DNA from: Phytoseiulus persimilis
Taxonomy: Eukaryota > Arthropoda > Arachnida > Mesostigmata > Phytoseiidae
Assembly: GCA_037576195.1 (NCBI GenBank)
Contig: CM075103.1
Coordinates: forward strand, 37,213,250 to 37,277,249
DNA: 64,000 nt
Reading direction: 5' to 3'
A program made the translations under genes and the position numbers. Within the stretch, counting starts at the first letter, position 1. Each line of letters begins with the position of its first letter. The notes below the pieces were generated by a model. The model saw nothing but the letters and a program-made list of their open reading frames with translations, had not been told where the DNA came from and did not search any database. Positions 30,935-63,025 of the stretch are shown here, in pieces.

Positions 30935-33900
30935 TTACAAATGGACCAAGTCTAAATCGACCAAGTGACGCATCGTCGGTCTCCCATGCGGACAATTCCA
31001 CGGATGCTGGAGCCCGCTGAGCTGCGACACGACACGCTTCATGTCTCGAGTCTTCAATTCGTGGCCAACCATGACCGACTTCCTGCAGGCTCTCATCGCG
31101 AACATTGAGCGAACTTTCATGGGTCGACAGTTCATGAGATTCGGATGCGAATTGTCGTTGAGCATGAAGACGAGCTCGTCGATTTCGCTTGCTCCCATCG
31201 CCCACTGACCGGATTGCGGAACGGCGGTCAGGGAGAGCTTCCGGCCGCATGGCGCGTTGTCATCGCATGCCAAACGGAAGCCGTTCTTCTCGAAAATTGG
31301 GAGGTGTTCGATGACCACCCCCTCGTTGCCCGGGGCGAGGCATAACTTAAGGGGGATGGCGAGGGGTTGACTCTCGATCACTGTGGTGGCCTGCAAGGTT
31401 TCGAAGTTGAACTTCTCGTCGGCGGCGTGCTGGTCCACGATGAAGAGATCAGTGTTCAATTTGGCGATGATGAAGCCTTTGTTGAACTGGCCGATGATCT
31501 CCATTTCCTTGAACATGTCCTTGGTGATCTCGCGCATCAGTTCAGCCTCCGCCGTGTTGTTCTCTCTCGGCGATATCCTCGCTCTGAATCGGCTCATTTC
31601 TTTTCTCTCCTCTTCAGCGTCAGAACCTCTGTGCTTCCCGCCGAGTTCGAGTGACTTGAAGTCTCGGAGCATTTCTTCCTCAGTCCATTCGAGGAACCGT
31701 ATGCCGACTTTCCGCTCTCGCGTCTCGTCGACGAAGAGAATTGCCTCCTGCTCGTCTGCTTCGCGCTCTTGCTCCGGAATTCCGGTGCCCGCGTCGAGCT
31801 CTTCCTCAGAAAGGATGACCTCGCACCCTCTGCGTTTACGCGGAGCTTCGTCAGAGCCGGTCGCGCCTCTCAGACGGCTTCTCAAAGCAGCGATGCCATC
31901 GAGCTCCTCGACCGAGCCGCGCGAGTTCTTTGGGAGAGAGATCGCGGATTTCCCGGCTGCGGGAGACCTCCCTCCGACTTCGTCCGCAGGCGGCGACCCT
32001 CGAGCTCGAGGTTCGGGCGGCGCAACAGCCTCCGGAGATCCGTGACCCGAGTTTGAAGAATCCTTGTCCGAGAAAATCATGAGCTCGAGATCTTCCTCGA
32101 TGCCGGGATTTTGCTCTCCCTGCGGCTCTCGAGCCAGCAAATGCCTGACTTCCTCCTCGTCCGACTTCCTGCCCTTTCGGACCGGAGTTGGCGGTCCTCG
32201 CTCTCCCTCGACACCTCCGTCTCTGCTCTGGGTTTGCTTCCGACTGAGGCCTTCCAGGTCACAAGACACCTTCGTTTCGGTTTCCTGGTCCGTATGATCT
32301 GCGGACCGAGGTTTCTTACCAAGATGTCGAGTGAACCCGAAAGAGGCGAGAGTCGGCGGTTCCTGACTGGCTCTCGGCGCAGAATCTTCCAGGTCCAGGG
32401 CGTCCGTGTACGATCTCTTGGATGTTCTTGCAGTGCGCGCAGTGTCGTTTTTGAAAGAGAACCTCTCCCGGAGACTGGGCTTCGATGGTTCCTCATGGCC
32501 AACAGGAACTGAGACCCTGATCTTGTTCTCGCGTACAAAAGCATGCCTCGAGCGCGTCTCTTTCAACTCTTCGTCCGATGAGTCGCCGTCGAGTTCGAGC
32601 GGCTCCGACTCTCTTCGGCCCAGGGAGCCTGTTTTCGGAGCGGAACTCAGGGTGTAATTCGTGGCCTGCTTCTGAAACATGGCCGTCAACGATGCTTTCA
32701 CCATTGCAAGAATAACGTTTTCTCTCTGGAGCATCAGCATCCTCTTATCGGGAGTGAGATTCACGTCTACGAGGTGTCGGGGTGTCATGACGTTGAGCAT
32801 GACGAACGGGTACTGCGACGAGTTGAACTGATGATAGACTCCGTTGATTACTCGCGTTAGCTTCGGGAAATCACAGGGCCGTGAGTTGACGAACACGAAC
32901 TGTCTATCAGCAGAACTCCTACCCGCACCGTGCTCGCACTTCGAGACGAAGCCCTCGACGCTCACTTCTTCAAAGTGCCCAGTTGAAACGTTGCCCAGTC
33001 CGAACTCCTGTTTGATGTCCTCGGAAATCGCGATCTGCTCATACGGCTGGAGTTTCGTGGTTTCTTTGAAGCCGAAAATCTCGATGATATTGTCTTTATA
33101 CGAGGCATGGGCTCGTTTTTTCAACACTTCATGACGCTTCCCCCTTTCGTCGATATTCACAAGCGAAATCGCGACGTCTCTGGCGATGAGGCAGTATCCA
33201 GACATGAAATGAACCATCCTAGCAAATTCTTTCTTTAGGTTCACCATGAACTGTTTATGGCGGACAGGCAGGCAAACGAAGATATTTTCCACGCTGACGG
33301 TCGTTCCTGTCGGTCTCGCGCACGGCCTACTCTCCGAGAGCAAACCCTCGGAATTGAATTTCAAAGTGTTTCCAACCTCTTTGGACTCGTGTTTGGTCGT
33401 CACGGACAACTCGCCGAGAGCACAGAGTGACGACAAAGCCTCGCCCCTGAATCCGAAAGTCAAAATGTTCTCTAGTTCGGCGAAATCATGGAGCTTCGAG
33501 GTGTAGTGCTTCCGACACAACGCATCGAAGTTCTCCTCAAGAATTCCAGCGCCGTTGTCCTGGACCTGAAACGTCGAATGGTTGGAATATGCAGAATCGG
33601 CACAACAGGAAACTGTTAACCTATAATTCATCCCGACTCAACCAGTCGGAGCAATTGCGATAACCACCTCGATGAGCTTGGATCCAGACTCTTTGGTGCG
33701 TATCGCGATGTCTGTCGCACCCGCATCCAACGCGTTCTCCACTAGTTCCTTCACGGCCACGGCTAAGCTCACAATAACCTGAGGGATGATTGGATGGTGG
33801 GAAACCGAATCACGCTCGCCCTCAGGCTTGTGCTAGGATCGCTTCGGAGTCGATCGATCGCGAAATGTCGATGCTCACCTGTCCCGAACAGATGCGATGC

Positions 33901-33999: not shown

Positions 34000-36900
34000 G
34001 CGTATGAAGTATTCTGGAAGTGAGGAACAGAATTCAGTCGCTCGAACTTTCGGCCTAGAGGTGAATGGAAGCAGCATCAAAGCTAGACACATCGGATCGA
34101 TTCTCATCAGCACGCGGATGTTACAGGACTCACTCGATTCTCACACAATACCGCGTATTATTTCTGGAGCATCCAGGAGGACAGCCGATCCTGTGCTCGG
34201 AACTTTGCGAGCTCTTCGGCTCATTCTGTCTGATCAGCTGACAGAGTTACGCGCCATGATGGGTCGACGGCTTGTGAAGGGAGAGGGTTCAAAGATCGTC
34301 GGCAAGAGTCGCGTGATCGGCATCAAACGTTCCATCACCGTAAATACTGGAAAAACTCATCTGTTCTAGAGTCCTGAGCGACCTCGATAGTTGATGGACT
34401 TCCCCATCCGACAGCTCTACCTCATGTTATCAACAGTGTTCCGGAGTGATATCAGACATTGAGAGTTCATCGGCGCGGAGCACGAGCCTTCGCTTAGGGA
34501 TAGCGGACAATCTCGAATTCTCATTGTTTCAAAGATGATCGACTTCCCATGTCATTCGATATCCTCGAGAAATGTTTCGTTTCGAGTCGGTTCCCAGGGG
34601 GTCGAGAGAAAAAACGTGGGGCGGAAGGAAGTTGCAAGGAAGTTCGAGCTTTTCATACGCAAGCGGAGTACTGTTTTTAGGAAATTCGTGGGACGAGATG
34701 GCTGTGGAAAATTGCGTGATCGATGAAGAAACTCCGTGGAATGAAAATTTTGCAAACAAATCCCAAAATTTGACGATTTGGTTTGGTTGAAGAGCGTTCA
34801 TTTGATTTGAATGATTTACTTCAGCGAAATGCCGGATTCTTGTACGGCCAGGGAGGACTTCTTCCAACAAAATTTCTCGGGAACGTTCCTCCTTTCGGAA
34901 GTCCTGTCTCAGGTCTGAAGACTCGGATTCTTAATCGAGCGTTGCGACCTCAATGATGAGACCTGAATTCGAAGTCCAGTCTCGAATTCAATGTCAGTTG
35001 TGTGTTATTTTGCTCACAATAGGGTGAAACACCTCATCGAGAGTTCGGATCGCTTGAAGTTCAGCTCGTCCTAAGTGGTGTACACCTCAGTCTTCCTCGG
35101 TCAAGTTGTTGAATGACTCCGTAAGAAATCCTCGTGAACGAAGCACGACTCAGAACGCTTACGTCCGAAAGTGCTGACGCCGTGATCAAGCAGACTCTCC
35201 AAAAACTGCCCGTGAAAGTGACACTTGGGCCTCGTCGGTTGGAGAGTCAAATCAGGCGAGCAGAGCGAGCATCCTCGGAGCTGACTCACTGTGAGGTAAA
35301 TGAACCCAATCAATAGAGTGAGTTAGATGAATCTCTGGCCGAACTGGACTCAAAGCGCATGAGACTCGTCAGACAGAATGGTACAGTTGACGGATCCGAC
35401 GCTGCTGCTCCGGCGAATTTCCGTTCCGGTAAACCACGAAACCAGTAGCAACATTTAAAGAGGAAAAATATGGCCCCCAAGACGAGTTTCGCGAGGCGAA
35501 TGTGGAAACAGATGAGTTGACCTGAGAGTCAAGTAGCCTGTTCAGAAATTGAATTTCACCTTTGTACAAGAACACAGTTCCGATAATTAACGGCTCATTT
35601 TGGAGTGTCGATATTCGGGGATTTAAGCCTCCCCAAGATGCCGATGAGCTCCCGGAGCTATTTGTTCCCAAGGTAGGCATAACACCGTCGTGAGATGCGA
35701 AACGAGAATCAGTGTTCCCCGAGAAACGCTGCACGCAATAGGCGGTGTAAAGTGGAACCATTCCAGCTAGTTTTGCTCGGCGAGGCTCGTGGCTTCCCGA
35801 AGAGATGTGTTACGCACGTGCATTACGTCAGATGTTACGCCTCAGAGAACGTGCGATGCCATGTGGTTATCACCGCTTCTGGATTGAACGATCTCGAGGA
35901 CTCCCGACCCAACAGATGAGATCAACTCTGAGCGAAACACAAAATTCCACGACTTGCTAGAGCACACGTCAGATTCGTTCCGAACGTCCAGTCCAGTTGC
36001 ACAGTTAGCGACCATTGGCTCGATTCTAAGCGTTACAACGAATGTAGTTCTCAACTCGGGGCACTTCGATGTGACATTAGAGAGGAGTTAGGCGAAGATC
36101 ACAGTATCTCCATGGAGTGTCCGGAAGAGAACAGAGAGCCAGGAGAAGTGTGCAGGCTGAGTGCAGTCTGGACACATTGGAACTGACCGCGGGACGCTGT
36201 AACAGTTGACTCACATCAAGGAAGATCATCAGTTGAATGTGTCGCCGATCTGTGTCTATTCATACGGAAAACTGCGAATGAGAAACTTCTCCTGCCGTCT
36301 GATGTCGATAATGGGTTGTGGTCAGCGTCGGGAGAGTTTACTCGGAAGTCATGCCTTGAAGGCCTGCGACCCGAGTTCAAGATCGTTTCTTTTCGGATGA
36401 GATTATAGGTCGTGTACTCTTCAAAGAAAATGCACGCAGTCGTTCCTACGTGCCTGTTTAGTATGGTTATTTGTGAGAACCCAGATTTCGTATCGTGGAA
36501 TCGAGAAAACTCGCCGAGCATGAAGTGTCATGCTGAGCTCAGTCGATTTAGCGGAACGGGCAAATAAGGCAGCTCACTCATAATGAATCCAGGACCTCAC
36601 TCAGGAGAACTTTGAGAGTCGTCCATCAGTTCTGTGAAAGACCGCATACTCGACTTATCACGGAGAGCGGTAGGGACTCATTTTCGCGCCACCGTCAAAG
36701 CATAACGACCGGAAACACCATGAAAGGTCGAGTTTCGTCCCACTTCGGCTGCAACTCCTTCAATATTCGCACACGCCGAAACGGCCTGCCGGGATAAGCG
36801 CCCCACCAAAAGAAAACGATTTTCGAAAATTCAAGGGCTATCGAAAGCGGTAGGCAGCGGGTCCCGGAAACCTCTTTTCGACCTGAGGAAAATCGAAAAC

Positions 36901-37084
36901 TCGTTGGTTCACCCGGAAGGAGAGGGCTGACCACTTTCTCAGATATCGCTAACGTACTCCTCCCCATCGTCTACTCGCAGGGCAAGTTTCATCCCCGGCG
37001 ATCAAGCGGTTTTTTTCCCGGAACTCGCTTGAAACTCAGCATCAAAATGGATAGAAGTCACCGAATCCAGTCATCTATCTCAAA
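34000..37084. other. Gene-poor stretch; unrecognised ORFs only
   Basis: Open frames without family match are 34004-34369 (+, 121 codons) and 35369-35761 (-, 130 codons, composition fairly protein-like, e.g. LIIGTVFLYKGEIQFLNRLL). The second could be one exon of a decayed receptor gene, but nothing supports that beyond composition. A roughly 34-bp inverted match links 36964-36997 (catcgtctactcgcagggc) with 37335-37367. Confidence 0.3.
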
Positions 37085-37275
37085 GTCATGATCCGATCGA
37101 TCCCGGAATAACCCTCCCAGACTCGTTAAACTGTACTCAGATTGGTCCCAGGATCACCGTTCCAGACTTGGAAAAGTGTGCTCAGATTGGTCCCGGAATC
37201 ACCCCCATTTACCCCCAGCAGTATGGTCAGGGAGTCAGTATGGTCGGGGGTGATTCCGGGATCGATCTCGGGAAA
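37085..37275 (+). repeat. 45-bp minisatellite array b
   Basis: Three to four units (e.g. tcagattggtcccggaatca, ccagacttggaaaagtgtgc), then a junction at 37229-37260 where one partial unit is in reverse orientation (gggggtgattccgggatcga). Confidence 0.65.
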
Positions 37276-37603
37276 ACCCGCTTCACCGCCGATGTTCAAC
37301 TGCTGATATCTCGGTCCCGCAAACTCGCATTGGGATGAAACTCGCCCTGCGAGTAGACGATGAAGATGCCGTCCACCAAGGGGTCGATATCGACCACTTT
37401 GAGAACCACTGTTCTAGATGAAGCTGTGGCTTCAGAAGCTTCCTGCGTGAAAAGCTCGTCTGTGCTCTTCAGTCGCGAGAGACAGGTTTTAGAGACAGAG
37501 ACTCCGCACAGACAGAAATTACGCTTTTCGGGGGTATGGTTGAGCTCTGAGTAGTTCTTTTCGTTCCACTCAAGAACCGCCCCCACGTAGAACAGAGGTT
37601 AGG

Positions 37604-38670: not shown

Positions 38671-41182
38671 ACCTGACTAAGGAGTTGTCGGATCGACCCG
38701 TAAATTTTTTGGTCGGGTAGTTCGGATCAATCTTAGAACTAGACCTCATTTCCCGTTTAACGGATAACGGAAAATAATTCAGTTCTAGCCCCCAGTCCGA
38801 CATGTCGAAACGGCCAATAATCCTCGAGATCGCACAGTTTTTATTCGTTGGCACTGGATTCGTCTCTCTTTGCTGCATGTCCCGCGCTGACACATTCACC
38901 TATGCACAATACGTTGCTTGTTATCGGTGTTAATACTCTTCAGCGGTCACTTATTCACCTATGCACATTATGTTGCACGTCATCGGTGTCTACATCCTGC
39001 TGCAACGGCCATTGATTCAGTTCCATCGAATCACTTCGTTGATACACAGCAACTCTGTTCCCTTGATTCGTTTCCTACAGCCCTAATCATCCAGGTCGAG
39101 CATTGGCCGACTGGTTTGAAGAATAAGCTCAGAATGTAAGTTGCTAATCTGCCATATGTCGTGCTAGTTATTGATTACGGGCTGCATGCATTTCGGAGCT
39201 ACGTAGGAATGATTTTGGAGAGCGATCGAGTACGCAACTCTGAGTATGATCGATTCCTGCTCCGAATTTCTGAAGATGTCCACATCTGTCCAATAAAGAG
39301 CCAACTGGAAGGAAGATGCTAGCTTGAACTATAGCTGCTAGTGGAGAAGCGTCAGTGGCATTTACTTTGTATTTGAAATTTTCTAGCCGATGTGCGTAAA
39401 TCTGGTGATGGCCCATCCGGAGAGCACCGTTTGAGAAAGCCCTATCGCTACGGGAGAACACACTAATCGGCAGTATACCGAGTAATGAGCCTTCCACACC
39501 GTGCCGTGTCCAGCAGCTAGGGACACCGCGTTGGACGAACTGTCGTCGACCCACTTCGTACGAGAACCCTTAATCTTCAAGAATGCTGGTAATCCCCAAT
39601 TTCCGCTCGGCTCTTTCTTCTTACGAAACATGATATTGTCCAGACTGCGGAGATCGTCTGTGATTACTCGAATCAAGGTTATGATTTTCTGAGAGTCACG
39701 CTCTAAACACCGACCTTGAATCAATTCATTCTTCTCCTGATGTTTTGACATCAATGGAGTTGACAATAGCACATACAACGCAAGGAACTCCGTTGACATC
39801 TCAGCCGCCATGGACTGCATCCTGGCTGATCAGTCTGGGCACGCATTTCGATAAGTCTCCACCTCGTGGCAACTTTCGAATGGTTCGTTCCGTCATCTGA
39901 GGAGGGCAAGGCACTTCGCTCGAGGCTGTGCGCCAAAACGTTCGCCCAGAACTCTTCGAATCTGTGCACCGACCCGCCGAAGATGGTTCGCCGGAGGCAG
40001 TCCTGACCGTCGTACGGGGGCGAACGATTTTCCGGACTGGCTGGAAAAGTTCGAATTCGCGACAGGTCGATCCGCGCCGGACTCCGGAAAATGTTGTCTA
40101 ACCCTATGATACGATCCTCCGGCCTACACGAAGGGAATGCTTTCGGGTAGACGAGAGTCAAGGCGAAAAACACCCCTGTCCTCAGAGCCGTTCTTCTGGG
40201 GCGGGTGCGCTGGTCAGCTCTCAGAGCGCGTGGATGGCAAATCGAGTTTCGACAATATATCGGCTGACATGAACTGGTCAGCTCGAGAGGAAACCTTGCC
40301 CGTATCGCACCGTTGTTGATGTTTCGCTTGGATTGTTCTCCGGCATTACATCGCAAGAATCTGAAATCTATTGTGCTCTATCAAGAAACGGGAGGCCACC
40401 TGTCGGTACTGGAGAAGAATTAAAACGATCTATATGTAAAAGAACAACGGACGACCGATGTAGCGGTGGATCCCCTCCCTGCCGTTTTCGGTTATCCGGC
40501 CTCTTGATTCGAGCCACGGATTTTTTTCCAACTCTTGATAAACATTTCCAAGCTGCTCTTAACAATGAGCCCACTTGGGGACGACAGCGCGAGTCCCATC
40601 GACAGGAACACAGCGCTGCAGCTCCTTGCGACGAGCAGACAATCACCGCATTGCTCCGACAGGAACGATGGAGCGGGGGTACACTTGGCTGTTTTTCGTG
40701 GACAAAAACAACCGCCGTTGCCTCAGCCCCTTCTCATGCCCGTCACCACCGGAAGGCCACTCTGAGTGAGTGGTTCCTCGGAACTCTTGAAAATGTTTCA
40801 AACGAAACCACTAGGTAATCATCATGAATTTCTCTTCCGTTCCCAAGTGAAGGTACGGGATATGACGTATCCTACGTCAAAACAGTGTGTGAGCTCATCG
40901 GATTCGGTTCAGATTGGGAATTAAACTCCATCCTCGAGTGCGATGAGTTTTTGCTGCCCGTGCGACACTGCTCTGAGGAAAGAAATCGTTTGTTTTCCGT
41001 GCCGTTATGAATGAGCTGGGGTATCAAACTCCAGGACGTCAGAGCGGATTGGCGGGCGTGGATCCCAGAAAGGACAGAGCGCACGCCGCGCGAACACAGC
41101 GGCGTCTGGTGGCGGAGCTCACCACGTCAGGCTGAAAATGTAGCTGCGTCATTGGGACACTGACTGATGTCCAGGCTGCTCA
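38671..41182. other. No gene recognised
   Basis: Two long minus-strand frames (39383-39820 and 39751-40356) overlap and lack recognisable domains. A segment around 39920-40030 vaguely recalls retroelement gag sequence (HRFEEFWANVLAHSLE), too weak to call. A short tandem duplication (cacctatgcaca-a and following) occurs at about 38896-38975. Confidence 0.3.
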
Positions 41183-43208
41183 ATGAACTCCGTGGAATCG
41201 CTTATACGCAGAGTTCACTCCGGGATGGTTCTGATCGTTGCTTTGGGCACTTTGGCTGTCATTTTTTGCGGGGCTTCGAGCTATGTTCAGTCGTCTCCTC
41301 AATCGTCGAATCCTGGGAACGCGGGAGAAGTGCTCCACGAAATCTGCGCCGCGATTTGTTCACAGTCTCCTGGAGGCCGGGAGCTAACTTTCGTGTTCGT
41401 GCTCTTCACAACGCGCGACTTTGAGACATCCTTCAACTATCTTTGGAGCCTACCTCGAGCGCAGATATTCCTTTCAACAGAACCCATGGCACTGAAAACA
41501 AACGACAGGGAGATCACAGTTTCTTGGGAACGAGATGACAAACCCCCGGGCTCCAATCGTGAAGTCAGTGCGTTCTGGGATATCTACAAGCATTGTGGAT
41601 CGCGTAATTGCGATCACGTCATCGATACTATCGAACACTTTCAGATGGAGAAACGTGTTCTAATACAAGTCCGGGAGCTCAAAACATCAGAGTGGATACG
41701 ATACACTCCGCAGGTGGTGCGCGACAGAATGAAAACTTTACTAGACTATACTTTCTATTACCATCGGTATAGGAGCACACTCGTAGTTCTCAGACTGAAG
41801 AACGCAAAGAACGTGCATTCTAGTCTCATCATCAAGAGATCAGGGAAACTGATTGGTAAGACAATAATGCAGTTGGATATCAAAGAGTTATCTGTCAGCG
41901 ACGCGAAGAAAGTTTTCGATCCCGTCCAACGCGATTCGAACCGCAGCTCAGAGTACGGTGTTCTGTTCTCCGGGTTAACCTTCCCAGACGGAGGTTCTGA
42001 GCATATAGTGGCGTTCAACAGTTGCAACCACGTGAGTACACTTCGATTGCGATTTCCCGAGCGGAGGGCGAAGTGCTGAGGATATCGATGACCAGACAGT
42101 GATCTCCTTCCAGAACCGGATCACGTATGCGTACGCGTACACCTACCTCGCAGTCCGACTCGCGGTGCCACTTCCATGGGAAACCCATCTGGTGTCGAAG
42201 TTGCCACAGTATTCAACTCTGGAACTGCCTCTGACGATCGTTTCCCTGATCGCACTCCCGTGGGTTCTCTCGATTAGACGATATCGGTCTTTCACCCGGG
42301 TTTCATCCGTCTTGAGAGCTTCGTACCACCTGCTCAGTGGCGACAACAACGATTCCATCATCTCTAGCTCACAGCAAGGACATCTGACCTTGCTCTTATG
42401 TGGTTTGGTTTCTTTACTGATTCAGTTCCCAATCAGTCTCCTGAAAGGAGAAGTGATCTCCTCGTCCTACGAGCAGAGGATTCATCCTTCGCAATGCTCA
42501 ATCAATACTTGCGAGACAAGCGAGGCTCGCTGGAAATGGTTCGACAGACAAAAAGACTACTCGGATGGGTTCAATATCATGAAGTTGGATAAGGCTTCGC
42601 GAAACAATCAGGGATCGGTGACTGAAACGAATTTGAGGAGCGGATGCTCAACGATTTCATTGTCCACCGCTGGGATGTTCAAGTGGACGAAACTCGCGTT
42701 CCTCGCTCAGTATCATACTTTATGCAATGATCCGGAGCTCATGAAGCTGCAGCTGAACAATTTCGGGCGAAACCTAGTCTTCGAACCCATCGTCGGCTCG
42801 CATGCCTCTCAACCCATCTGCCTGCTCGGCTCGAGCCACGGGGGTCACGTTCTATTTGACGAAGCTTTCAAGATTTCGAAACAGATTCTGGAACATGGTT
42901 TGCTGAGATATCATCATGTTAATGCTTCTCTCTATCCAGATGATCCTTACGAAGCTAAATTCTGGAACCGGGAAAGGATGAGAAAGAATTGGGGAAGTCC
43001 GGAATCCATCAAACGGACGGTTCAGTCTATAATAGCGAACCTTGAGAAGAGATATCATGACCTCGGGATGCTCGGAAATGGAGAGAGCTTCAAAGCCGTT
43101 GGATTCCAAAGTGTGGAGCTCCTCATTGTGACCTTACTCGGATTGATGGTGGCTTACCTCATGGGTATCCTCCTGAGCAAATATAGCGCGGATTCATCTC
43201 TAGGGTAG
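41183..43208 (+). CDS. Divergent ionotropic-receptor (IR/iGluR-like) chemoreceptor, intact
   Basis: Two exons: 41183-42031 and 42114-43208, with an 82-nt phase-0 intron (647 aa). A hydrophobic signal-like N-terminus (VLIVALGTLAVIFCG) leads a roughly 300-residue outer part. Hydrophobic segments then lie at about 319-337 (LELPLTIVSLIALPWVLSI), 374-393 (LTLLLCGLVSLLIQFPISLL) and 617-639 (LLIVTLLGLMVAYLMGILL). The first two are about 36 residues apart and the last follows a roughly 220-residue outer loop. That is the M1 / pore-M2 / S2 / M3 layout of ionotropic receptors. No classic ligand-binding Arg/Asp residues are obvious, as in divergent IRs, so family assignment rests on topology. A second copy at 56923-58846 is broken. 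Likely a chemosensory cation channel subunit; another 3-TM family cannot be excluded. Confidence 0.6.
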
Positions 43209-48489: not shown

Positions 48490-48630
48490 CCAAAAAAGTA
48501 TTGCCAGATCAATCCCGGAATCACCTCTTCAGACTGCGGAAAGTAGGGTCAGATCAACGCTGGAATAACCTCCAAAGATTCCAAAAAGTATGGTCAGATT
48601 GATTCCGGAATCACGTTCCCAGACCTCGGA
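48490..48630 (+). repeat. 45-bp minisatellite array c
   Basis: Three units with cores such as aaaaagtatggtcagattga and ttccggaatcac. It abuts the 5' side of the LINE remnant and is followed by a run of about 14 G at 48651-48665. Confidence 0.65.
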
Positions 48631-49806: not shown

Positions 49807-51014
49807 GAAAAGGGTCTGGGCGGTTTTTGTTCATGGTCCACGGATTTCGCTGAAAATTACACTGAGGCATCCCGACGTGGAGTGGAGCTACCACAGCAAG
49901 AGTCAACCTCCGGCGATCTTCCGTTCGCTAGAAACAATGGAGTTAAGTCTTGGAAAAAAAAACTTGAAATCGTTGTATCTCGAGAACCACGGGGGCTACA
50001 GCGCCGATCGACATATTTTTGGAATGCTCTCGCCAAGGGCCATCTTTCGACGTTATAGGATTTAAGATAGTTCGATCGCTTCTATGATTTTGGTATTCGA
50101 AGTGTCACTTCCCGGCGAGTGGCCACTCCGGTAAGTACCTTAAAAAATAGTCCTAGGACCCTCCTACGTGCTGGGGAAATATCAGCGAGATCGAAGTGTC
50201 CCTTCCCTATTCATTTGATAAAAGTAGTATGTCGATCAGACCAGGGTTTTGCTCTGTCGCCTCGGGGCGTCACCGAAGCTGCCTGGAGCTCGCTGTACAA
50301 CGTTGTTTCGAAGTGAGGGACGTCGGCGCGCCTCGGAGACACGAAGAAAATACACCGTTTCTCGCGTAGAGAATACTTCCCATGAGCGATAGGCGCTATG
50401 GCCAGGTCGACTTTAGAATCACCTCCATAGACCCTCAGATGTATGGTCAGATCGACCTAGGAGCTCATGCGAAGTATTTTCTACGCAAGGAACAGTGTAT
50501 TTTCTTCTTGTCTCCGAGGCGTGCCGAGGCCCCTTACTTCGAAACAACGTTGTACAGCGAGCTCTAGGCAGCTTCGGTGACGCTCCGAGGCGACAGAGCA
50601 AAACCCTGGTCTGATCGGCATACTACTTTTATCAAATCAATGTGGAAAGAACACTTCGATCTCGCTGATATTGCCCCAGCACGTAGGGGTGTCCCACGAC
50701 TATTTTTCCAGGTACTCACCGGAGTGGCCACTCGCCGGGCAGTGTCACTTCGAGTACCAAAATCATAGAAGCGATCGACCGATCTTAAATCCTTAACATC
50801 AAGAGATGGCCCTTGGCGAGAGCATCTCAAAAAATTGTCGATCGGCGCTGTAGCCCCCGTGGTTCTCGAGATTTAACGATTTTGAGTGTTTTTTTTTCAA
50901 GACTTAGCTTCATTGGTTGAAACTTGCTGTGGTAGCTCCACTCCACGTCGGGATGCCTCAGTGCAATTTTCAGCGAAATCCGTGGACCATGGACAAAAAC
51001 CGCCCAGACCCTTT
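49807..51014. mobile_element. Foldback element with ~570-bp inverted arms around a 45-bp-repeat core
   Basis: The left arm (49807-50386) and right arm (50461-51014) are near-complete reverse complements, about 90% by eye. Matching blocks include aaagggtctgggcggttttt, gtccacggatttcgctgaaa, tgaggcatcccgacgtggag, atcgacat/gtcgatcggcgctg, gagtggccactccgg and cagggttttgctctgtcgcc. The roughly 75-bp loop (50387-50460) is minisatellite sequence. No transposase is present. RNA from it would form a long hairpin. Confidence 0.8.
50390..50460 (+). repeat. 45-bp minisatellite array d (loop of the foldback element)
   Basis: About 1.6 units: cgctatggccaggtcgactt and agatgtatggtcagatcgac, each followed by an -atcacc/-gagctc end. 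Confidence 0.6.
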
Positions 51015-52277
51015 GGGAAGCTAAGACCCCAGTTCCGCTTGTGAGGACGCTTCAGCTTCCTTGGGCGCGTTCACTGATCCTTGAGAGTGCAGGAAAGCTA
51101 GAGCAGGACACTCTCGATGTAACTTCGTATCAAATTACATGCCACCGCGGGATGTTGTTGACCCTGTTTCAGTGTCGCGTTCGTCATTCCAGATTGAGTT
51201 TCGATTGGGCACGAATTCTCTAACTCAAGAAGAAAGCAGTCTCGGAGACAGCAGTTTGAGAGGGAAAATATTGCTCTGCCACGATTTTGGCCCGCAGACA
51301 CTCGGCAGCTGATAGATCAGACCGACCGCGAAACTTCCTCAAAAACGGTGATCGTTGACTCACGGAACCGACTGCGCGAAATTTAGAGTACAGCTTGAGT
51401 GCGAATCATGGGAAGCTAAATGATCTCTTCTTTCACCAGTTCAATGATTGGATAATGCATTCATTTGTTCCGTCACCAGCATTTCACAGCGATTGAGGAG
51501 GACCCACTGGACCCCAAGAGGGCATTCTTGGAGTGAAAGCATTCCGCGCTTTCGTAAAAGCCGTAATCCTTGAAGGAGCATGTTCTCTTCAGTAAATGCT
51601 CGCCGTGAAAAGCGCCGACAAGTTTCCTCCCTACGGTCTCTCTCTCGGCTTTTCCTTATTCGCACTTGAAGATTTTCTTTTGGACCATGATTCCCCATCA
51701 GCTGTCCCGAGAATCCCGAAGAAAAATGCTCTTGCGGAGCTCAAGCCTGCGGTAACGACGAATGCCATGTTTTCAAGTTCTGCGGAGAATAGAGGATTCG
51801 CCAGGAAGGCGGAGCACGGGTCGGCGTTCAGGATCTTGGAGTACGGAGTTCCTCGACTGTATTCCGCCGTACTCCGCGTATTGATGGAAATTTCCCCCAT
51901 CGCGCGGTAAATCGATGAAGCGGTCTCGACCGAAAATCATCGTTCTGCACGTAGCCTGTGGAAACTTTTCCACTGTACTCAGTGAAGGGTCATATGTGAG
52001 AAATATCAGATCGGTCGCGCGATGATTGCGGCAACATTCCCGATGGCGTTGCTCACGCCCACGACACTCCCAGCTCAATCGAGTGCTATATCTAACGCTA
52101 CGGATGATTCGCCGCCTCCCCTCCAATCCACCGCGCCCGATGCGATACATGTAGAGTACGGAAAAAAATCGGTCATATTGGTCCCGGAACACCCCTCCCC
52201 CCGGACGCAAAATGATATGGTGAGATCTGTACGACGCTGTGATCCATTCAAGATGAAGGCCACAACTTAAGGAACCT
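51015..52277. other. No gene recognised
   Basis: A 237-codon minus-strand frame (51773-52486) runs through here into a LINE remnant lying in the opposite orientation, so most of it is an antisense shadow. Frames at 51596-51910 on both strands have no family match. Confidence 0.3.
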
Positions 52278-52924: not shown

Positions 52925-53095
52925 CACCGAAAGACTCAGAAAAGTATGGTGAGATGTTGATCCCGGAATAATCTCCCCGGACCCGCAAAAGTATGGTCAG
53001 ACTTGTCCCGGAATCACCCCCCAGACTCAGAAAAGAATGGTCAGATTGGTCTCGGAATCAGTGGGAAATAGAGGTCAGATTGGTCCCTGAATCGG
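52925..53095 (+). repeat. 45-bp minisatellite array e
   Basis: About four units, e.g. cagaaaagtatggtgagatg, gcaaaagtatggtcagactt and cagattggtctcggaatca. Confidence 0.65.
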
Positions 53096-53099
53096 CACC

Positions 53100-56000
53100 T
53101 CAGTCCCCACCTCCTCCATACTCTAAAAGGAGGGCGATTTTTTTTCTAATCGAATTCAGAGGGCTCAGATTCTCCATAGGCGGCGCTGCTGAGCTCGCTC
53201 GCTGTGATGTGGAAGGGTTTACAACTGACGGAAAGCGCCCGGTGTTACTAGCATCTAGCATCCCGCTCTCGGCTGGGAAGAACTAACGAACCAAACCATG
53301 ATGATGTCGCCATGGAAAATAATCGTTTCTGGTGTTTTCGCCGGAAACTGACCACTGGGGCATGGGTCGAGTTTTAATGAATGGAGAAAATCGATCGGAA
53401 AATGTCCGATCAATTGGATGGGAGGAAGAATACGCAACTTTTGCATGGGGTTCGTGACCAGAAACCGGTTTTCAAAAAGTCACGGAGCTCTCTTCTGTCA
53501 AGTTTCAAGGGTTGCGAGGCATATGCTACCATGGCAACATTTTCATATTCTTTCTCTTGGGCTCTCGGCAGTTGGAAGCGGGATGCTGGCACACTGTTTT
53601 TTTCGTTAGATCAACACCCTTCCACATCACACCGAGCGAACTTAGCTGCGCCTCCCATGGGAAATTTGCTAGCCCTCTGAATTTGTGGCGAAAAAATCCG
53701 TACATTTCTGAGGGAAAGAGTCGCTACTTTTTGACTGAGCTACTTTTCGCGAAAATTCCGAAATTCGCACACTGAGCTCTGATTAACAGTCAAAAGGAGA
53801 ACGCGAATCAGATTCAAATGATTGCACACTTGTGATTAAAATCTCGACCCAATTCGATCACCCTTTATAGTAAGGATATGAAAGAACGAAACAAATCAAT
53901 TGGTCAAATCGAAAGTTCAGAGACATGCTGAACTGATGCCTTTCGAGATTCTCTCCCGGACGGAATCACCTGCCCAGCCATCGGTCCATCAGCGATCGTT
54001 GCTCCCAGACATTATGTTGACGGCATGTTTGGAGTCGCTCAGGGTTCGATAACCGATTCTGCAGCGGTTCACCCCGCTTTCGGTTCCAAATTATCTTCAC
54101 CCGCAGGATTCGATCAAGATCATTTTGCCAAGACCAACCTGGACCATCTCCGGTCACTCGTCGGGGATGTCGTTTTGTTAGCACGCATCGTGGTTTGGAT
54201 TGAAGGTGCACAGTCGTTCTCGGCCATCGAACGGATTAAAGTCGTCCCAGGATTGACAGTGCGGGTCGAGTTCACGGATTACACCGTGAGGTATCATCCC
54301 GAGCAGTCATGATCACTTTGAGGTCTCCGGAGCGCTCAGTTCTCGAGTGTTTCAAGGGTCACGGGATCTATGTTGTTGGGGATGCTGGGAATAGATTACC
54401 TGTATTTTGGAATCGAAACGAGGCCCGTTATAACCCGACAGAAGCCCTTTCGCTCAACCCCGAGCGTGGGAGAAGGTCCAATGAAGACGCCGAAGGCCCC
54501 AGATATGCCTCATATAACATTGTGCCTGATCGGGAATGCAAACGAGAATGCTGATCTGCAAATCCGGTAAACAGGGAACAAGCCACAGAAACACACGAAC
54601 AGGAAACACAGGGAGAGCGCAGACATGCGGGGATCCTGCAGGCCCCCAAGGACGCCGACGGAGAAACGAGACGACGACTTTTCGGGGGCCATAATCCAGC
54701 CCCTCGAGAGGCGAAAATGCTCCAGTACGCCGGAATCGTTGGAGCCGCTGGCGGAAAAAAAATTCTCGTTTCTGCTCTGAATCACACTTTCCGACATCGT
54801 CCGGTGCTCTGAGAAGGGTTCCTCGGGATCATCCAACAAGCACAGGAGAATGAAATTTCGATACCGTTCATCGAAGGACTGTTCCTCCCCGCTCCTCGTT
54901 TGCCGCGTCTCGATTCCTGGTCATTTCCTGAATCATTCCCCAAATCGACAACATTCATTTTCCGACCGAAAAATGAATGGAGATTTTTTTTTCTGAACAT
55001 CAATTTAACGTTGACTCAAACTCGCGCTCTGTTCCACCCATCGTAGATTCCCTTATCATCCCCTCTTACTTCGCCCTTTCCGGAAAGAAGACCCGTGATT
55101 CATCAGAATCCATCGTTTCGTTTTCCCAAGAAAAGCTCGAGAAACCCTGTCCCAGCAATCAGGGGTAACGGAAATTATTTTGCGAGCTCCGTTCACGAGA
55201 GAAACTTCTCATAGTAAGTTCTGCGTGCCAAGTCAATGCTCCCACCACACTTCACATGTGCGGAGCCCCGCATTGTGACCCCGTACGAAAGTTTCTTGAG
55301 AAGAGTCATGCCATGCGAAAGATGTCCCCGCGCTACACCATGAGATTGTCAGGCAAGCCGAGCGTTGCGAGCAAACGTAGTTCTTACTCGCAGTTTCTCT
55401 TGAACTGAGCCAAGAGTCATGGGCTCGGGAACTTACCTCGGTAAGCCTCGTCATAGCTTATAACATCCGGAAGTATACTCACGTAGTCGTTCCCGCCAAA
55501 TGAGCTCCATGGGGAGCTTTCCCTCGTGAATGGCCGTCTCATATGGCCGACCGTCAGTGCACCCAGAGCCTTGACGGCAACCATGGTCCCTTTTTCCCCT
55601 GTGTGGGATAGCGTCCGATTCGTGTGGACAATGTAGCTGAAGCCTCATCGGTCCGTGTTGGAAAAAGGAGGAGGGAGATGTCTCGAGGGAAATTTTCGAC
55701 CGCTTTCGGCTCGACTCGGATCGAATTTCCCGTCACTTCCATCACGCACCACCTGTCTCTATCTTAGGAACCAGCTCGTTCGGTTTCCCTCGATGTTATC
55801 ATGGTAGTTTCAACGTTTATGGTGTACAGTGGACTCCGCTCAATAGGACCACCTGACAATCGGATCATCCGCTAGTTCAGATTGAAAGTCCCATGCCTCG
55901 ATTCTCTCCTTAGGGATCGCTCTCGTTCATCATTACAATGCTTCATCTTATCGTATCATTGTATCCGGAGCGCCATGTGTTTCAATCGAAAATTGAGGAG

Positions 56001-56922
56001 TTTCCGCTGTGAGAGACGCAGAGCACGAGGCGCGCTCGCTTGCTTGACTCGTGCATTCTCAGAACCAGCGAGATCTCGATCACGGAATCATGGCGTCAGT
56101 CTGACCCTCCAACTCAATCGCTTGCCAGAGCGTGATAGTTAGGTTTCTGTGCGAGATCCTAAACGGGATCACGGCAGCACGCCCCCCTTTGCGTTGTTAG
56201 TTCCGTTGAATTCGTGAGCGATGCCGTGATCTGACCAATTTTTGAGTGTGATCTTCAGAAGCCAAGTACCACGCCAAAGATCGTCCTCGAGAAATCAGAA
56301 GGGGCGCTGAGATTTGACTCATAGTTTCAGCGGAGTCAGTGTTGTCGCCAGTCTCGCATCGGGAAACTCCGTTATTTCCATTCCTGACCCCCCGTCTCTC
56401 AACAACGGAAGTCCACATAGCCTGAACGCACATGGTCACAAGTTACGTCGAGGCATAAGTTCTAAGCGTCGCGGTACAACGCCGTTCTGGCGTTGTTCTG
56501 AGATCCTTCCCCCAATGCTGGAAGGCGGTGCTTCTTCGCTGTCGCCCGCGAAATCTGAGCAACGGATGATCGCGCTTCCCGGTTGATTCACTGCAAGAAT
56601 TCGCAATCTTCGACCCGATTGACATTTTTGGGGATGACTCCACAGGTCCAGCCCGACCTGGTGCTTTTTCTTCGCGGGATACGAAAAATGAAATGACTCG
56701 TGTTGAAAAGCACTGAAAGTTCTCAGAAATTCCAACTCGATCTGGAATCTGATATAATGCGAGCAGTATAGCATTGAAAGCCCTCCAAGGGCTGATCCAA
56801 AACTCAATTTGCGCTTTGTACACGTACTCTGTGAAGCAATCCCACGACTGAGCCTCCATGCCGAGATTGTGCGACGACAGCGGTCATAATGTCGACAGGT
56901 TGACTGCTGTCTAGGCTGCTCC
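53100..56922. other. Gene-poor stretch upstream of the IR pseudogene
   Basis: No gene was recognised. Frames of note: 54025-54312 (+, 95 codons, valine-rich end) and 56859-56443 (-, ATG start, MEAQSWDCFTEYVYK, hydrophobic block WRAFNAILLALYQI), which could be a first exon diverging from the IR pseudogene. A Tc1/pogo-like end (TA-CAGTGGACTCCGCT, 55825) precedes GGATCATCCGC and suggests a small MITE relic. Confidence 0.3.
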
Positions 56923-58846
56923 ATGAAATCACCTAGGTTTCCCCTCGAAATGGCTCTGAGTATCGCTCTCTACATTTTGGCTTATCTCTCCCATGAGGTT
57001 TCGTGCAACCCTCCAACGTCGGTGCTCCTTCCAGAAGCTGGAAACGCCAGTGACACACTCGACAGAATCCTCGAAGCAATTTGCTCGCAGCCCCCAGAGC
57101 GCAGGGGAATGACTTTTGTGCTCGTGCTCTTCAGAACGTCCGACTTCAAGACATCCTTCAACTATATTTGGAGCCTACCTCGAGAGCAGGTGTATCTCTC
57201 GACAGATCCCATGGCACTCAAGCCCAACTACAGAGTGATCACACTTTCTTGGGAACGAGATATTAAGCCAACGGCCTCCAAACGTTATTTTAGTGCGTTC
57301 TGGGATATCCACAAGGAATGTGGATCGCGAGTTTGCGACCGCGTCTTCGATACTATCGAACACTTTCAGATGGAGAAACGTGTTCTAATACAAGTCCGGA
57401 AGCTCGAAACATCAGAGTGGAAACGATACAGTCCGCAGGTGGTGCGGAACAGAATGAAAACTGTACTAGACTATACTTTTTATTATCATCGTTATAGGAG
57501 CACACTCGTAGTGCTCAGACTGAAGAACGCAGAGGACGTGCATTCTAGCCTCATCATCAAGAGATCAGGGAAACTGATTGGTAAGACAATAATGCAGTTG
57601 GATATCAAAGAGTTATCTGTCAGCGACGCGGGAAGAGTTTTCGATCCCGCTCAACACGATTCGAACCACAGCTCAGAGTACGGTGTTCTGTTCTCCGGGT
57701 TAACCTTCCCAGACGGAGGTTCTGAGCATATAGTGGCGTTCAACAGCTGCAACCACGTGAGAACACTTCGATTGCGATTTCCCGAGCGGAGGGCGAAGTG
57801 CTGAGGATATCGATGACCAGACAGTGATCTCCTTCCAGAACCGGATCACGTATACCTACGCGTATACCTACCTCCCAGTCCGACTCGCGGTGCCACTCCC
57901 ATGGGAAACCCATTTGGTGTCGAAGTTGCCACAGTATTCAACTCTAGAACTGCCTCTCACGATCGTTTCCCTGATCGCACTCCCGTGGGTCCTCTCGATT
58001 AGACGACATCGGTCTTTCACGCGGGTTTCATCCGTCTTGAGAGCTTCGTACCACCTGCTCAGTGGCGACAACAACGATTCCATCATCTCTAGCTCACAGC
58101 AAGGACCCCTGACCTTGCTCTTATGTGGTTTGGTTTCTTTACTGATTCAGTTCCCAATCAGTCTCCTGAAAGGAGGAGTGATCTCCTCGTCCTACGAGCA
58201 GAGGATTCATCCTTCCCAATGCTCAATCAATACTTGCGAGACAAGCGAGGCTCGCTGGAAGTGGTTCGACAGCCAAGGGTACTACACGGATGGGTTCAAT
58301 ATCATGAAGTTGGGTAAGGGCTCGCGAAACGATCAAGGATGGGTGACTGAAGCGAATTTGAGGAGCGGATGCTCAACGATATGATTGTCCACCGCTGGGA
58401 TGTTCGAATGGACGAAACTCGCGTTCCTTGCTCAGTATCATACTTTATGCAATGATTCGGAGCTCATGAAGCTGCAGCCGAACAATTTCGGGCGAAACCT
58501 AGTTTTCGAACCCATCGTCGGCTCGCATGCCTCTCAACCCATCTGCCTGCTCGGCTCGAGCCACGGGGGTCACGTTCTATTTGACGAAGCTTTCGAGATT
58601 TCGAAACAGATTCTGGAACATGGTTTGCTGAGATATCATCATGTTGATTCGTCTCTCTATCCAGATGATCCTCACGAAGCTAAATTCTGGAACCGGGAAA
58701 AGATGAGACCGGATAGGGGAAGTTCGGAATCCATCAATCGGACGGCTCAGTCAATAATAGCGAATCTTGAGAAGAGATATCATGAGCTCAGGTTGCTCGA
58801 GAATGATGGGAGCTTACCCCATGAGTATGCTCCTGAGCAAACATAA
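56923..58846 (+). pseudogene. Broken second copy of the IR-like gene
   Basis: Same two-exon structure as 41183-43208 (exon 1 56923-57756, intron 82 nt, exon 2 from 57839). Two lesions separate it from the intact copy. A TGA at 58382-58384 replaces a Ser codon after SGCSTI. A roughly 65-bp deletion near 58815, between short gctt repeats, shifts the frame and removes the last membrane segment, so the protein ends HEYAPEQT. The 3' two-thirds are about 95% identical to the intact gene, including the intron, while the first ~370 bp are much more different. A truncated product ending before S2 is possible but would lack a channel core. Confidence 0.8.
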
Positions 58847-59054: not shown

Positions 59055-59125
59055 AAATGGGGTGATTTCGGAACCGATCTGACCATTAGTTTCCAACTCT
59101 GGAGGCGTGATTCCGAGGCCAATCT
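59055..59125 (-). repeat. 45-bp minisatellite array f
   Basis: About 1.5 units in reverse orientation (ggggtgatttcggaaccgat, ccaactctggaggcgtgatt). Confidence 0.6.
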
Positions 59126-59454
59126 ATAAATGTGAAAATCCGAAAAAAAAAGGAACTGTTTGTTTGTTTGTCTGTTTGTACCCAATAGGCTCCTCCGGTA
59201 TTGATCGGATCGACTTGGAACGAACTGCATAATGTAGGGCGGCTCACCGGGAAGGACATGGGCCAAACACCCCTTCCCCCCTCCACTTCTCCCCCTCGCG
59301 ATTTAACCCAACTCTGACCCCCTCCATACTGTCACCCGCATGCAAATTCTGACGATAAGGTGCACCGCCCCGATATGACGCCAGCCAGACTCTTAGGCCT
59401 CATCCCATCGTCATCGGATTTCCTCCCCCACTCCCTCTCCTATACATTTATCAT

Positions 59455-59705
59455 GAAAATATCTGGAGGGGTGATTTCGAGACCAATCTGGCCATAAGTT
59501 TCCAACTCTGGAGGGGTGATTCCGGGACCAATCCGGCCATTACTTTCCAACTCTGGGAGGGTGATTCTGGGACCAATCTGACCATTAATTTCCAACTCTG
59601 GTGGGGTGATTCCGGGACCCATCTGAGCATTACTTTCCAACTCTGGAAGGGTGATTCTGGGACCAATCTGACCATACTTTTCCAAGTCTGAAGAGGTGAT
59701 TCCCC
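59455..59705 (-). repeat. 45-bp minisatellite array g (largest, five to six units)
   Basis: The cleanest array, with exact 45-bp spacing (ctctggaggggtgattccgg, gaccaatc-ggccattacttt). On the minus strand the whole array is open, giving 15-residue repeats of the type ELESNGQIGPGITP. It shows the period exactly and was used to find the other arrays. Confidence 0.85.
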
Positions 59706-59984
59706 CCTTCACGCTATGACGCCTTATACTGGACGATGACGCGCACCGCACCGATATGATGGCAGCGAAACCCCTCTCCCTCTTCAATAATGACACTTGA
59801 TACTGTACTACATGGCAGGCGAAGTCTTTCTGTCCTCAGTAGACTTCCGAAGCAGGAGACAGGCCGGGCAGAGCCGTCAGCCGAAGGTCGGTTACACAAA
59901 ACTAGCCTACCTGCGGTTTTTCGAATGACATGGGAGAATATCGTAGCAGGTCGTGAGATATATTCGGCTATTTATGGAGCCTAT

Positions 59985-60429: not shown

Positions 60430-60560
60430 CTCCATGGATCCAAAAAAGGATAGTCAGATAGACCTCGGAATGACCCACACGGACCTCGCGAAGTATGGTC
60501 AAATCGACCCCGGGGCCACCTCCTTAGACTCCAGAAAAAGTGGTCAAATCGAGTCCAGAG
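60430..60560 (+). repeat. 45-bp minisatellite array h
   Basis: Three units: atggatccaaaaaaggatag, gcgaagtatggtcaaatcga and ccagaaaaagtggtcaaatc. Open in the plus frame. Confidence 0.65.
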
Positions 60561-61534: not shown

Positions 61535-61585
61535 AGGTATGTGGGGGTTATTCGGGGATCGGTCTGACCATTGATTTCAGAGCGA
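61535..61585 (-). repeat. 45-bp minisatellite, single unit i
   Basis: One reverse-orientation unit (gggggttattcggggatcgg, tctgaccattgattt). Confidence 0.5.
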
Positions 61586-61589
61586 CGCG

Positions 61590-62512
61590 CAGATCGTTAC
61601 CATCAAACTGATTCGGATTATCGTTGTCTGTGGCTGGAATGGGCGCTCTTCGCCGGCCAAGATGGTATTTTTGCAGTTCGGAGCCCGACGGAGGAAAATG
61701 CAGACATCGAGGGAGTTGATCGTTCCCTGCGTGGGAAGATCTTTCGAGTATTTGCCGAGATAATTTATGATCTGTACCTGATCAGTCCACAGTTCCAGCC
61801 CAACTGACTACTCGTTCTTAACGGGGAAATATTCTTCACCCAAAGGATTGTACCGGTCGCTGTGGCCGAGTCTGGGGCCGAAGTGACTTTGCGAAATGAG
61901 TGGGTATCGTTCTCGATACTCGACCTTCACGCCGATCACAGAGTAGGCTCGAGACTCTGGAGTGTTCCCATCGTTCCCAACGCACGACACGATGTTGAGA
62001 GAACGTTCTCAGACGGCTTCCGGTTACCCATAGCCTCTCGGTCGCAGATTCACACTCTTGACCCGCGCGCTGGTCTCCCGACTCTCCAGAGGCATCAAGC
62101 GAGCGTCACGAAGACTGGGATGACTGAAAAATGTCAAGAGCTCTCAGAAACTCATACAGTCCGCAACACGAATTTATCGACACGCATTCTATGTGGATGA
62201 TTTCCGCACCCGCTGGATAACGAAATCAGTGTTGCCATGGGAATTCCACTAGGTGCGACAGACTTTGAGATTATATCAACCGACTGAGATGAACGAAGTT
62301 TAGGCTCAGGATCGAACATTTTTGATATCCAGCTGTAACACGAAATTATCGACAGCGTTGAAATCGCGCATTCGGTTGGAGTTTCAGCATTTTCTCGTGA
62401 GGCTGATACCGACGAACGTCAAGTTAGTGCTAACGAAGGACACACAAGTACGATTTGTCGACTCAGAACTCCGGCTCGTCAAGATTTGTGAGAAAGAATT
62501 CATTCCCTCAAT
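61590..62512. other. No gene recognised
   Basis: Short frames only (61571-61807, 61862-62200). May include the 5' end of the Tc1-like element that follows; I saw no clear terminal repeat. Confidence 0.3.
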
Positions 62513-63025
62513 ATGGGACGAAACCCGGCTCTGACTCCTCAAGAAAGGATTCGCATCGATCAATTACACTGCTCTGGGCTCGCAGCAAGAGCTATCGGAC
62601 GAGAGATCGGCAGAACAGCGGACGTAGTGCTGCGGTATTTGAGATTAGGGGCGGAGTATGGCATCAGATCGTACCAGAAACGAAGCACAAAGCTCTCAGA
62701 TCGTCAGAAACGGAAGATAATTCAGGATGCGAGCAACAAGAGTGTCTCTTGCGCTCAAATCAGAGACTCAAACAACCTCCCAGTCCATGAACAGACCGTC
62801 TGGCGCGTTTTGAGAAGTGCGTATCATCTGAAATTCAAGAAAATGTGCGGGAAGCCCCCGCTGACGAAAAAGCACCGAGACACTAGGCTCGATCGCGCCC
62901 AGGAATGGATGAGTTGGACTTCGGAATGGGATAAAGTTGTCTTCGGCGATGAGAAAAAGTTCAATCTGGACGGCCCGGATGGATTCCATAACTATTGGGT
63001 GGATGCAAAAGTTCTGGGCCCCTAA
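62513..63025 (+). mobile_element. Tc1/IS630-like transposase, truncated after the first catalytic Asp
   Basis: A 170-residue frame opens MGRNPALTPQERIRIDQLHC. It has two helix-turn-helix units (to about residue 110), the LTKKHRDTRLDRAQEWMSW-type linker and the first DDE motif KVVFGDEKKFNLDGPDG. It ends soon after the tryptophan of FHNYW. The second Asp and the final Glu/Asp are absent, so it cannot transpose. An unrelated A/T-rich element begins right at the break. Confidence 0.85.

Follow-up and report, generated by a model that had tools for sequence, protein, structure and literature searches.

The 45-bp tandem array at positions 59455-59705 of the window (by which we mean the whole 64-kb stretch of DNA analysed here, C3:37213250-37277249 of a 181-Mb assembly) raises the question of what a short repeat that recurs at many separate places belongs to and how it came to be there. 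A sequence-only reading of this DNA had described an array of exact 45-bp period, which TRF places at 59462-59703 (5.4 copies, 85% match, 1% indels), and TRF also reports 44-45-bp arrays at 37101, 48493, and 52932 of the window. At up to 3 mismatches, the 20-base core of the unit matches the window 8 times, and 100 shuffles yield no match; a first 45-bp profile gives 27 window matches at E ≤ 1, and an improved profile resolves 26 units in 12 clusters (viz. 28294-28325, 28390-28413, 37082-37205, 37247-37268(-), 48494-48624, 50397-50461, 52170-52198, 52940-53093, 59059-59125(-), 59462-59703(-), 60445-60530, and 61543-61572(-); the strand signs in this listing, e.g., that of 59462-59703, are opposite to the Helitron-sense strands given for features below). 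Nine repeat sites had been claimed for the 64 kb, and the improved profile finds at least one unit at each of them, the place at 61535 being a single unit, that at 28284 two separated single units, and that at 50390 weak (E 0.02 and 0.62 with the first profile).

The claimed dispersal of the repeat holds for the genome as a whole, where the 20-mer core occurs about 8,000 times (3578 + 4397 matches at up to 2 mismatches; reversed-pattern control 0). Extrapolation leads to a total of ~32,000 units, amounting to 1.4 Mb or about 0.8% of the genome, which gives the order of magnitude only because the 20 fetched loci used for calibration (332 core matches per 1335 units, 59.6 kb of array) were taken from the listed exact 20-mer core matches on C1 and are not a random sample. 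Individual arrays range from a few to more than 130 units, higher-order periods are present within them, and some unit positions are 97-98% invariant among 1091 units. The loci L035 and L036, about 12 kb apart and with common flanks, share a 1192-bp array that is 100% identical, and this is a recent local duplication. The arrays of L031, L062, and L067 are, unlike other arrays, rich in small indels, which reflect either decay or long-read assembly error. No Rfam family reaches its gathering score in the window or in 14 loci, and a known RNA or ribozyme end, for which just E 4.9 and 7.1 were obtained in 221 bases, was rejected.

When the arrays are masked, their flanks match one another across loci, and a recurring order becomes apparent that consists of a 177-bp module starting from ACTAGCCGGCCTTCGGCCGACTACG, the 45-bp array, and a module of ~330 bp ending in (CAAA)n...GACCCTGGATTTTTATATATATAGAT. 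Read on the opposite strand, this order is A|TCTATATATATAAAAATCC...array...CGTAGTCGGCCGAAGGCCGGCTAG|T. A TC start, a hairpin, a CTAG end, and insertion between A and T are given as the defining features of canonical Helitrons in the cited portions of PMC2267711 and PMC5876387, and their presence here therefore identifies the element as a canonical Helitron. Its plan comprises a host A on the 5' side, the TC start, a left module of ~330 bp, the array, a right module of ~177 bp with the hairpin and CTAG, and a host T. The right-end stem is predicted to be CGGCC/GGCCG (on the other strand), and the terminal hairpin adjoins the end itself, whereas it lies 10-15 bp upstream in a canonical Helitron. 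A composite retrotransposon of SVA-like type was considered and rejected, since the other strand fits a Helitron and the inspected end pairs have no target duplication.

The two ends are numerous in the genome and occur together. At up to 3 mismatches, the left end TCTATATATATAAAAATCCAGGGTCTG is found at 391 sites and the right end CGTAGTCGGCCGAAGGCCGGCTAGT (a pattern that includes the host T) at 457, with 0 control matches for each. When the right module is searched for at the DNA level, 535 candidate places are obtained, and for the left module 520; the 40 candidate places scored per module hold at least 40 right and at least 55 left matches on C1-C4 that are up to 100% identical. For 43 of 53 exact left ends on C1, an exact right end of the same strand lies no more than 15 kb away (opposite strand, 1/53), and the 36 pairs without an intervening left end span 1.5-6.1 kb (median 2893 bp). 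The midpoints of elements defined in this way by their ends contain the 45-bp unit in 20 out of 20 cases, always in the expected orientation (E ≤ 5.4e-10); 60 bp were taken from each of the first 20 of the 36 pairs in map order, skipping L040, L044, and L046, which had already been read, and 5 of 100 shuffles match at E ≤ 1.

The insertion site is equally consistent. An A precedes the TC in all 73 of the listed left ends other than CTAG joins (100 of the 111 left-end matches were listed with four preceding bases, and 27 of these are CTAG joins), which is far from chance even though the left-end pattern itself favours A, for which about 55% would be expected by our own arithmetic. One element, at C4:767-769 kb, lies inside a local tandem repeat that provides an empty site, and comparison by eye yields an A|T target; the filled site, GAGAATA|TTTGGAATAAAG, has the same length as the unfilled unit, GAGAATCTCCGGAATAAAG, and the insertion therefore neither duplicated nor removed any bases. 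None of the five end pairs examined by eye has a target duplication, and three of these pairs are informative (the ends of L059/L060 are altered, and those of L051/L052 lie within tandem copies). The left and right modules of L046, the one element compared in this way, share no terminal inverted repeats, their longest exact inverted match being 8 bp and not terminal.

Precise head-to-tail joins, CTAG|TC, are present at 40 sites on C1-C4 at up to 3 mismatches (24 of them perfect; control 0), and the base before TC at such a join is G and not the host A. Hence, two independent insertions would not normally be expected to produce them, an argument that is quoted in the cited part of PMC2267711, although the maize case discussed there was still judged to be two insertions. 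We regard the joins as a mark of rolling-circle copying. In L040, an upstream copy is cut within its array and joined to the left end of the next copy, with 1602 bp of its array 99.9% equal to that of its neighbour, and this arrangement would fit the 3'-truncated inner copies of tandem Helitrons that are mentioned in the portion of PMC7492417 drawn upon. L040 and L046, which are 4 Mb apart, are collinear over 2.35 kb at 95.4% identity, while random exact 45-bp units average 79% identity between loci and 84% within loci. The array of these two loci has thus been copied as a block.

The array from which the question arose is the body of a degenerate Helitron copy of ~0.77 kb (59123-59895, plus strand). 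Its left (5') module occupies 59123-59461, with a TC start after A59122 that was read by eye; a GTTT-rich tract comes first and a unique part follows, and 59157-59460 is 87% identical over 309 bp to the left module of family A. The array itself (59455-59705, plus strand; 6 units by profile) has the Helitron-sense unit TCTGGAGGGGTGATTCCGGGACCAATCTGACCATTACTTTCCAAC. About 100 bp that match no module separate it from the right (3') module (59807-59895, plus strand), which includes the region of the terminal hairpin; 59807-59894 is 77% identical over 88 bp to positions 88-175 of the 177-bp family-A right module, and the terminal CTAG is degraded to TTAC. The left end, CCAA|TCTATAAATG, lies inside an older 45-bp unit, and profile and sequence together delimit the older units into which it is joined at CCAA|TCT (59059-59125, plus strand).

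A probable remnant of a second Helitron is located at 27807-28413 on the minus strand, where the two separated units (28294-28413) are followed in the Helitron sense, 380 bp further on, by a right-module motif (27866-27914, E 3.6e-11; this stretch is one of the 11 sequences in the motif profile, and its score is partly by construction) and a D-type right end at 27807-27901 (73%). The remaining units of the window for which a carrier was not recognised comprise two short arrays detected both by TRF and by profile, viz. 48494-48624 (minus) and 52940-53103 (minus; 44-45 bp), two divergent units at 60445-60530 (minus), and single units at 52170-52198 (minus) and 61543-61572 (plus), the latter three places by profile; these are likely to be old, decayed copies. 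The window also holds a fragment of a Tc1/mariner-type transposase at 62492-63025 (HTH_Tnp_Tc3_2). Two gene-like reading frames at 41168-43208 and 56890-58846 are related (76% over 300 bp of DNA) and presumably resemble ionotropic receptors, the frame at 41168-43208 having no Pfam match. On the minus strand, 16386-20522 and 30935-33637 are uninterrupted frames of 1378 and 900 aa, suggestive of intron-poor genes, and their resemblance, as we take it, is to Son-of-sevenless and a MutL/PMS2 protein, respectively.

At least two families of right ends can be distinguished, family A (CTAG) and family D (CTGG). A motif of ~50 bp directly after the array is common to the A and D right ends, and therefore the array and the motif probably predate the split of these ends. 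Taking 56 arrays (44 in the loci and 12 in the window, with the library's own source copies left out), 22 adjoin a module within 60 bp, 4 of them on both sides; five of the 22 depend on module C5 alone, which is presumed from its place to be a left end, and without it the count is 17, with 2 on both sides. By comparison, 38 of 2692 random non-array positions have a module. The sequence-only reading had set its idea of actively spreading arrays against that of a single larger known transposon shared by all of them, and such a carrier is found in part: modules adjoin 19 of the 34 arrays with at least 5 units in the fetched loci (15 without C5), and among the window clusters 1 of 12 adjoins a module cleanly. 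For five arrays, located in L040, L044, and the window, the module lies on the side opposite to that expected, and tandem or nested copies account for this. No module was recognised beside long arrays of L031, L039, and L034 (110 units), all cut by the edge of the locus, or beside those of L042 (72 units) and L049 (41 and 43 units, with a weak right-module motif 41 bp past one of them); the fetched DNA ends within the arrays of L031 and L039, within one array of L034, and within one of L042. In L034 (8-5264), the 110-unit array stands beside a 6-unit array of opposite orientation and a right module adjoins only the short one, an arrangement that our explanation cannot accommodate without an inversion.

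A Rep-bearing partner of these elements can be recognised. The domain PF14214 (Helitron_like_N) has 101 matches in this genome and none in any of the 14 control genomes, and 5 of the 45 strongest Rep matches (at least 62 bits) lie at most 8 kb downstream of a same-strand join, against a mean of 0.04 and a maximum of 2 upon random placement (which used an assumed length for C2 and excluded one small-contig match) and 0 for the opposite strand. The clearest copy, of ~12.6 kb, runs on the minus strand of C3 from a join at 254.8 kb to one at 242.1 kb, the latter with 3 mismatches to the pattern. Its left end is followed from ~350 bp onward by the array, which is also read at 252.0-252.4 kb; other sequence is found at 251.0 and 250.0 kb, Rep at 248.4-248.9 kb within an open frame of 1682 aa, and the array again at 244.4 and 243.3 kb as well as near the right end. 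As judged from the pieces read, the array thus flanks Rep on either side in this copy. The Rep piece (1.03 kb, stop-free) contains PHAHIL, the HUH motif, and KYICKYVNKG, with its two tyrosines. L048 is the only place where a PIF1 helicase is seen (E 5e-27); its orientation is that of a Rep located 757 bp past the edge of this locus, a D-type right end follows it, and further on there is another array that ends in a D-type right end of its own. The 12.6-kb copy may likewise encode a helicase. At least one longer copy with the family ends carries Rep, and probably five do. Five Rep copies at C2:6.25-6.57 Mb have decayed and contain in-frame stops; three of them (6250469, 6372893, 6475601) are ~1 kb from a right end of opposite sense, the right-end listing on C2 reaching 6.54 Mb. 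Helitron-type elements had been named in the sequence-only reading as a precedent for carriers of minisatellites, and the canonical ends, the joins, and the Rep copy agree with that precedent.

Based upon these observations, the 45-bp repeat is very probably an internal tandem array, variable in its number of units, of a canonical Helitron lineage. Short copies (median 2.9 kb on C1) would be made up of the array between a left end and the right hairpin end. By analogy with the known Helitron mechanism and with Helraiser, Rep would nick the ends, one strand would be peeled off and circularised with TC joined to CTAG, and the circle would integrate between A and T without target duplication, sometimes as a head-to-tail multimer. 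The array would be copied as a block in this process and would change in length by unequal exchange or slippage, its growth probably being due to unequal exchange, and the decay of old copies would leave short, divergent arrays such as those of the window. The lineage appears to have been active recently, and the array would have no function of its own beyond being carried.

Foldback structures form a second context of the repeat. The window element at 49809-51014, whose ends are AAAGGGTCTGGGCGGTTTTTG, has inverted arms that are 88-96% complementary and two weak 45-bp units (50397-50461) in its loop, and its tips, AAAGGGTCT, are by eye similar to those of L045 and L032. The latter two are foldback elements in which both the arms and the arrays are inverted; their arms and middle are 84-92% alike, both contain arrays, and L041 has parts of the arms. 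Long inverted arms are seen in these two loci and the window element and are absent from the array at 59455-59705. Short inverted flanks (36834-37366; inversion by eye) surround the array at 37082-37268 and match L032:9561-9764 at 85% and 92%, a flank that is also found beside the L032 array, and this is probably a foldback context as well. Target duplications of the foldback elements are not discernible by eye. In L038 (6283-6408), presumed left modules stand head to head and form a 126-bp palindrome (97%) between inverted arrays, perhaps a foldback made from two Helitron halves.

Helitron ends also lie within the arrays themselves. Right-end matches are joined to the TCTG(A/G)CCATA of the unit in 11 of 12 instances, representing about six places, and the right-end junctions in arrays fall at the unit's own TCTGACCATA or TCTGGCCATA. 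At L033:3437-4587 an insertion in a 45-bp array, with the ends TAGGCTTTGCAAA...TTGCAAAGTCTA and an 8-bp flanking repeat, CCCTCCAG (by eye), is one that we take to be hAT-like. A Merlin-type transposase beside the L033 array was rejected, as Pfam gives just DUF6143 at E 0.006, below the cut-off. The earlier claim of spread in several contexts therefore stands with regard to mobile carriers and to the foldback loop, which are real, but the arrays are not simply independent minisatellites with unrelated flanks.

Several other explanations for the distribution of the repeat merit consideration. A free-standing satellite could spread by itself, through extrachromosomal circles or gene conversion, with Helitrons merely inserting into it, and the 34 of 56 arrays without a recognised module within 60 bp, the Helitron ends that lie inside arrays (the 11 of 12 right-end matches), and the hAT-like insertion would all agree with this; however, the 20 of 20 end-defined elements that hold the array internally in one orientation, the same modules adjoining it at many loci, and the copying of a whole array from end to end make such an origin quite improbable. 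There is also little likelihood that a foldback (terminal-inverted-repeat) transposon was the original carrier from which Helitrons took the array: L032 and L045 are closely alike, both have arrays, and one such element is present in the window, but the motif beside the array is common to two Helitron right-end families, and the array is therefore old in Helitrons. A protein-coding repeat of 15 residues, which long frames that remain open in arrays could suggest, is extremely unlikely. The frame EKYGQIGPGIT had been noted as open, and it is so in the consensus, but two other frames are open as well, 3 of the six being open because 45 is a multiple of 3. When the GQIGPGIT frame is checked for constraint in 1091 units, the ratio of nonsynonymous to synonymous changes is 1.58 and variation is highest at the second codon position, which speaks against constraint at the codon level and against the proposed protein repeat; values for the other frames lie between 0.54 and 1.95, the smallest two (0.54 and 0.65) coming from frames with a consensus stop, and these ratios serve as a rough, descriptive guide as the units are not independent samples. 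In addition, many spacings within arrays are not divisible by 3; a spacing of 46 bp, for example, occurs 61 times and one of 44 bp 26 times.

A further possibility, and the principal alternative, concerns only the role of the array and is compatible with its being part of a Helitron, viz. that it is a putative selected cis element, providing iteron-like binding sites for Rep or helicase or a chromatin signal. Short copies contain the array, in one long copy it flanks Rep on either side, the ~50-bp motif that follows it is common to right ends which differ further out, and some of its positions are nearly invariant, all of which would be in accordance with such a role; on the other hand, array length varies from a few to more than 130 units, and homogenisation by unequal exchange yields equal conservation, so that we consider selection for this purpose unlikely. 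We similarly give only a small chance to the combined proposal that selection has retained the array as a functional component to either side of Rep during divergence of the outer ends, and that arrays left behind act as landing sites (A|T in CCAATCTGACC), making the satellite self-seeding.

The presence of satellite arrays in Helitrons and Helentrons is already established from oyster, Drosophila, and a predatory mite. The Cg_HINE elements of the Pacific oyster resemble those described here in that satellite-like arrays are central in rolling-circle elements, with varied combinations of flank and array and without target duplication; according to the cited portion of that study, they are non-autonomous Helentrons with an oligo-T preference to which no autonomous element could be related, whereas the present elements are canonical A|T Helitrons and the Rep copy has matching ends and the array (PMC7492417). 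A review links Tyba to a Helitron and quotes ~90 units for the oyster arrays, in the part cited (PMC10048060). Helitron-2 of Drosophila virilis similarly has a tandem repeat near the 5' end of the full-length element that is spread by truncated copies, but its consensus is described, in the part of the source drawn on, as having four 154-bp units, in contrast to the 45-bp unit here, which forms arrays reaching more than 130 units and in one copy is also near the 3' end (PMC3833285).

Rolling-circle elements with some tandem or simple repeats and autonomous partners are also described for the western predatory mite (Helentrons/HINEs) and for DINE-1, but Helentrons have, as stated in the section cited, subterminal inverted repeats and a TT preference, and not TC...CTAG between A and T (PMC4067079). 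Neither Helentron feature is seen here, A preceding TC in every listed non-join left end and the longest exact inverted match, in L046 only, being the 8 bp given above. Helraiser/Helibat share the TC...CTAG ends, the 3' hairpin, the A|T target, and precise head-to-tail joins, but the cited portion of PMC5876387 mentions no internal minisatellite such as that present here. The window element at 49809-51014 can be likened, by description, to the Tetris foldback of D. virilis, in which tandem repeats are likewise found, in the passages cited (PMC4079207, PMC7492417). For N. cucumeris, the figure for Helitrons in the cited part of the genome report is 0.99% (PMC6902594). Among the matches listed from the open-licence literature, we have found no prior report of this 45-bp family.

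Compared with these systems, the less common features are that the Helitron is of the canonical A|T type and has a Rep copy to match, that arrays flank Rep, and that arrays can exceed 130 units. A genome-wide satellite is thereby tied to a Rep-bearing copy with matching ends and the array, a connection that could not be made in the cited part of the oyster study (PMC7492417). In practical terms, arrays of this kind should be masked as Helitrons and not annotated as genes with 15-residue repeats. A single genome here combines concatemer joins, short copies alongside others that bear Rep, and arrays of widely differing length, and it provides a system in which to study the growth and spread of satellite DNA by rolling-circle elements and any contribution of the array to their transposition.
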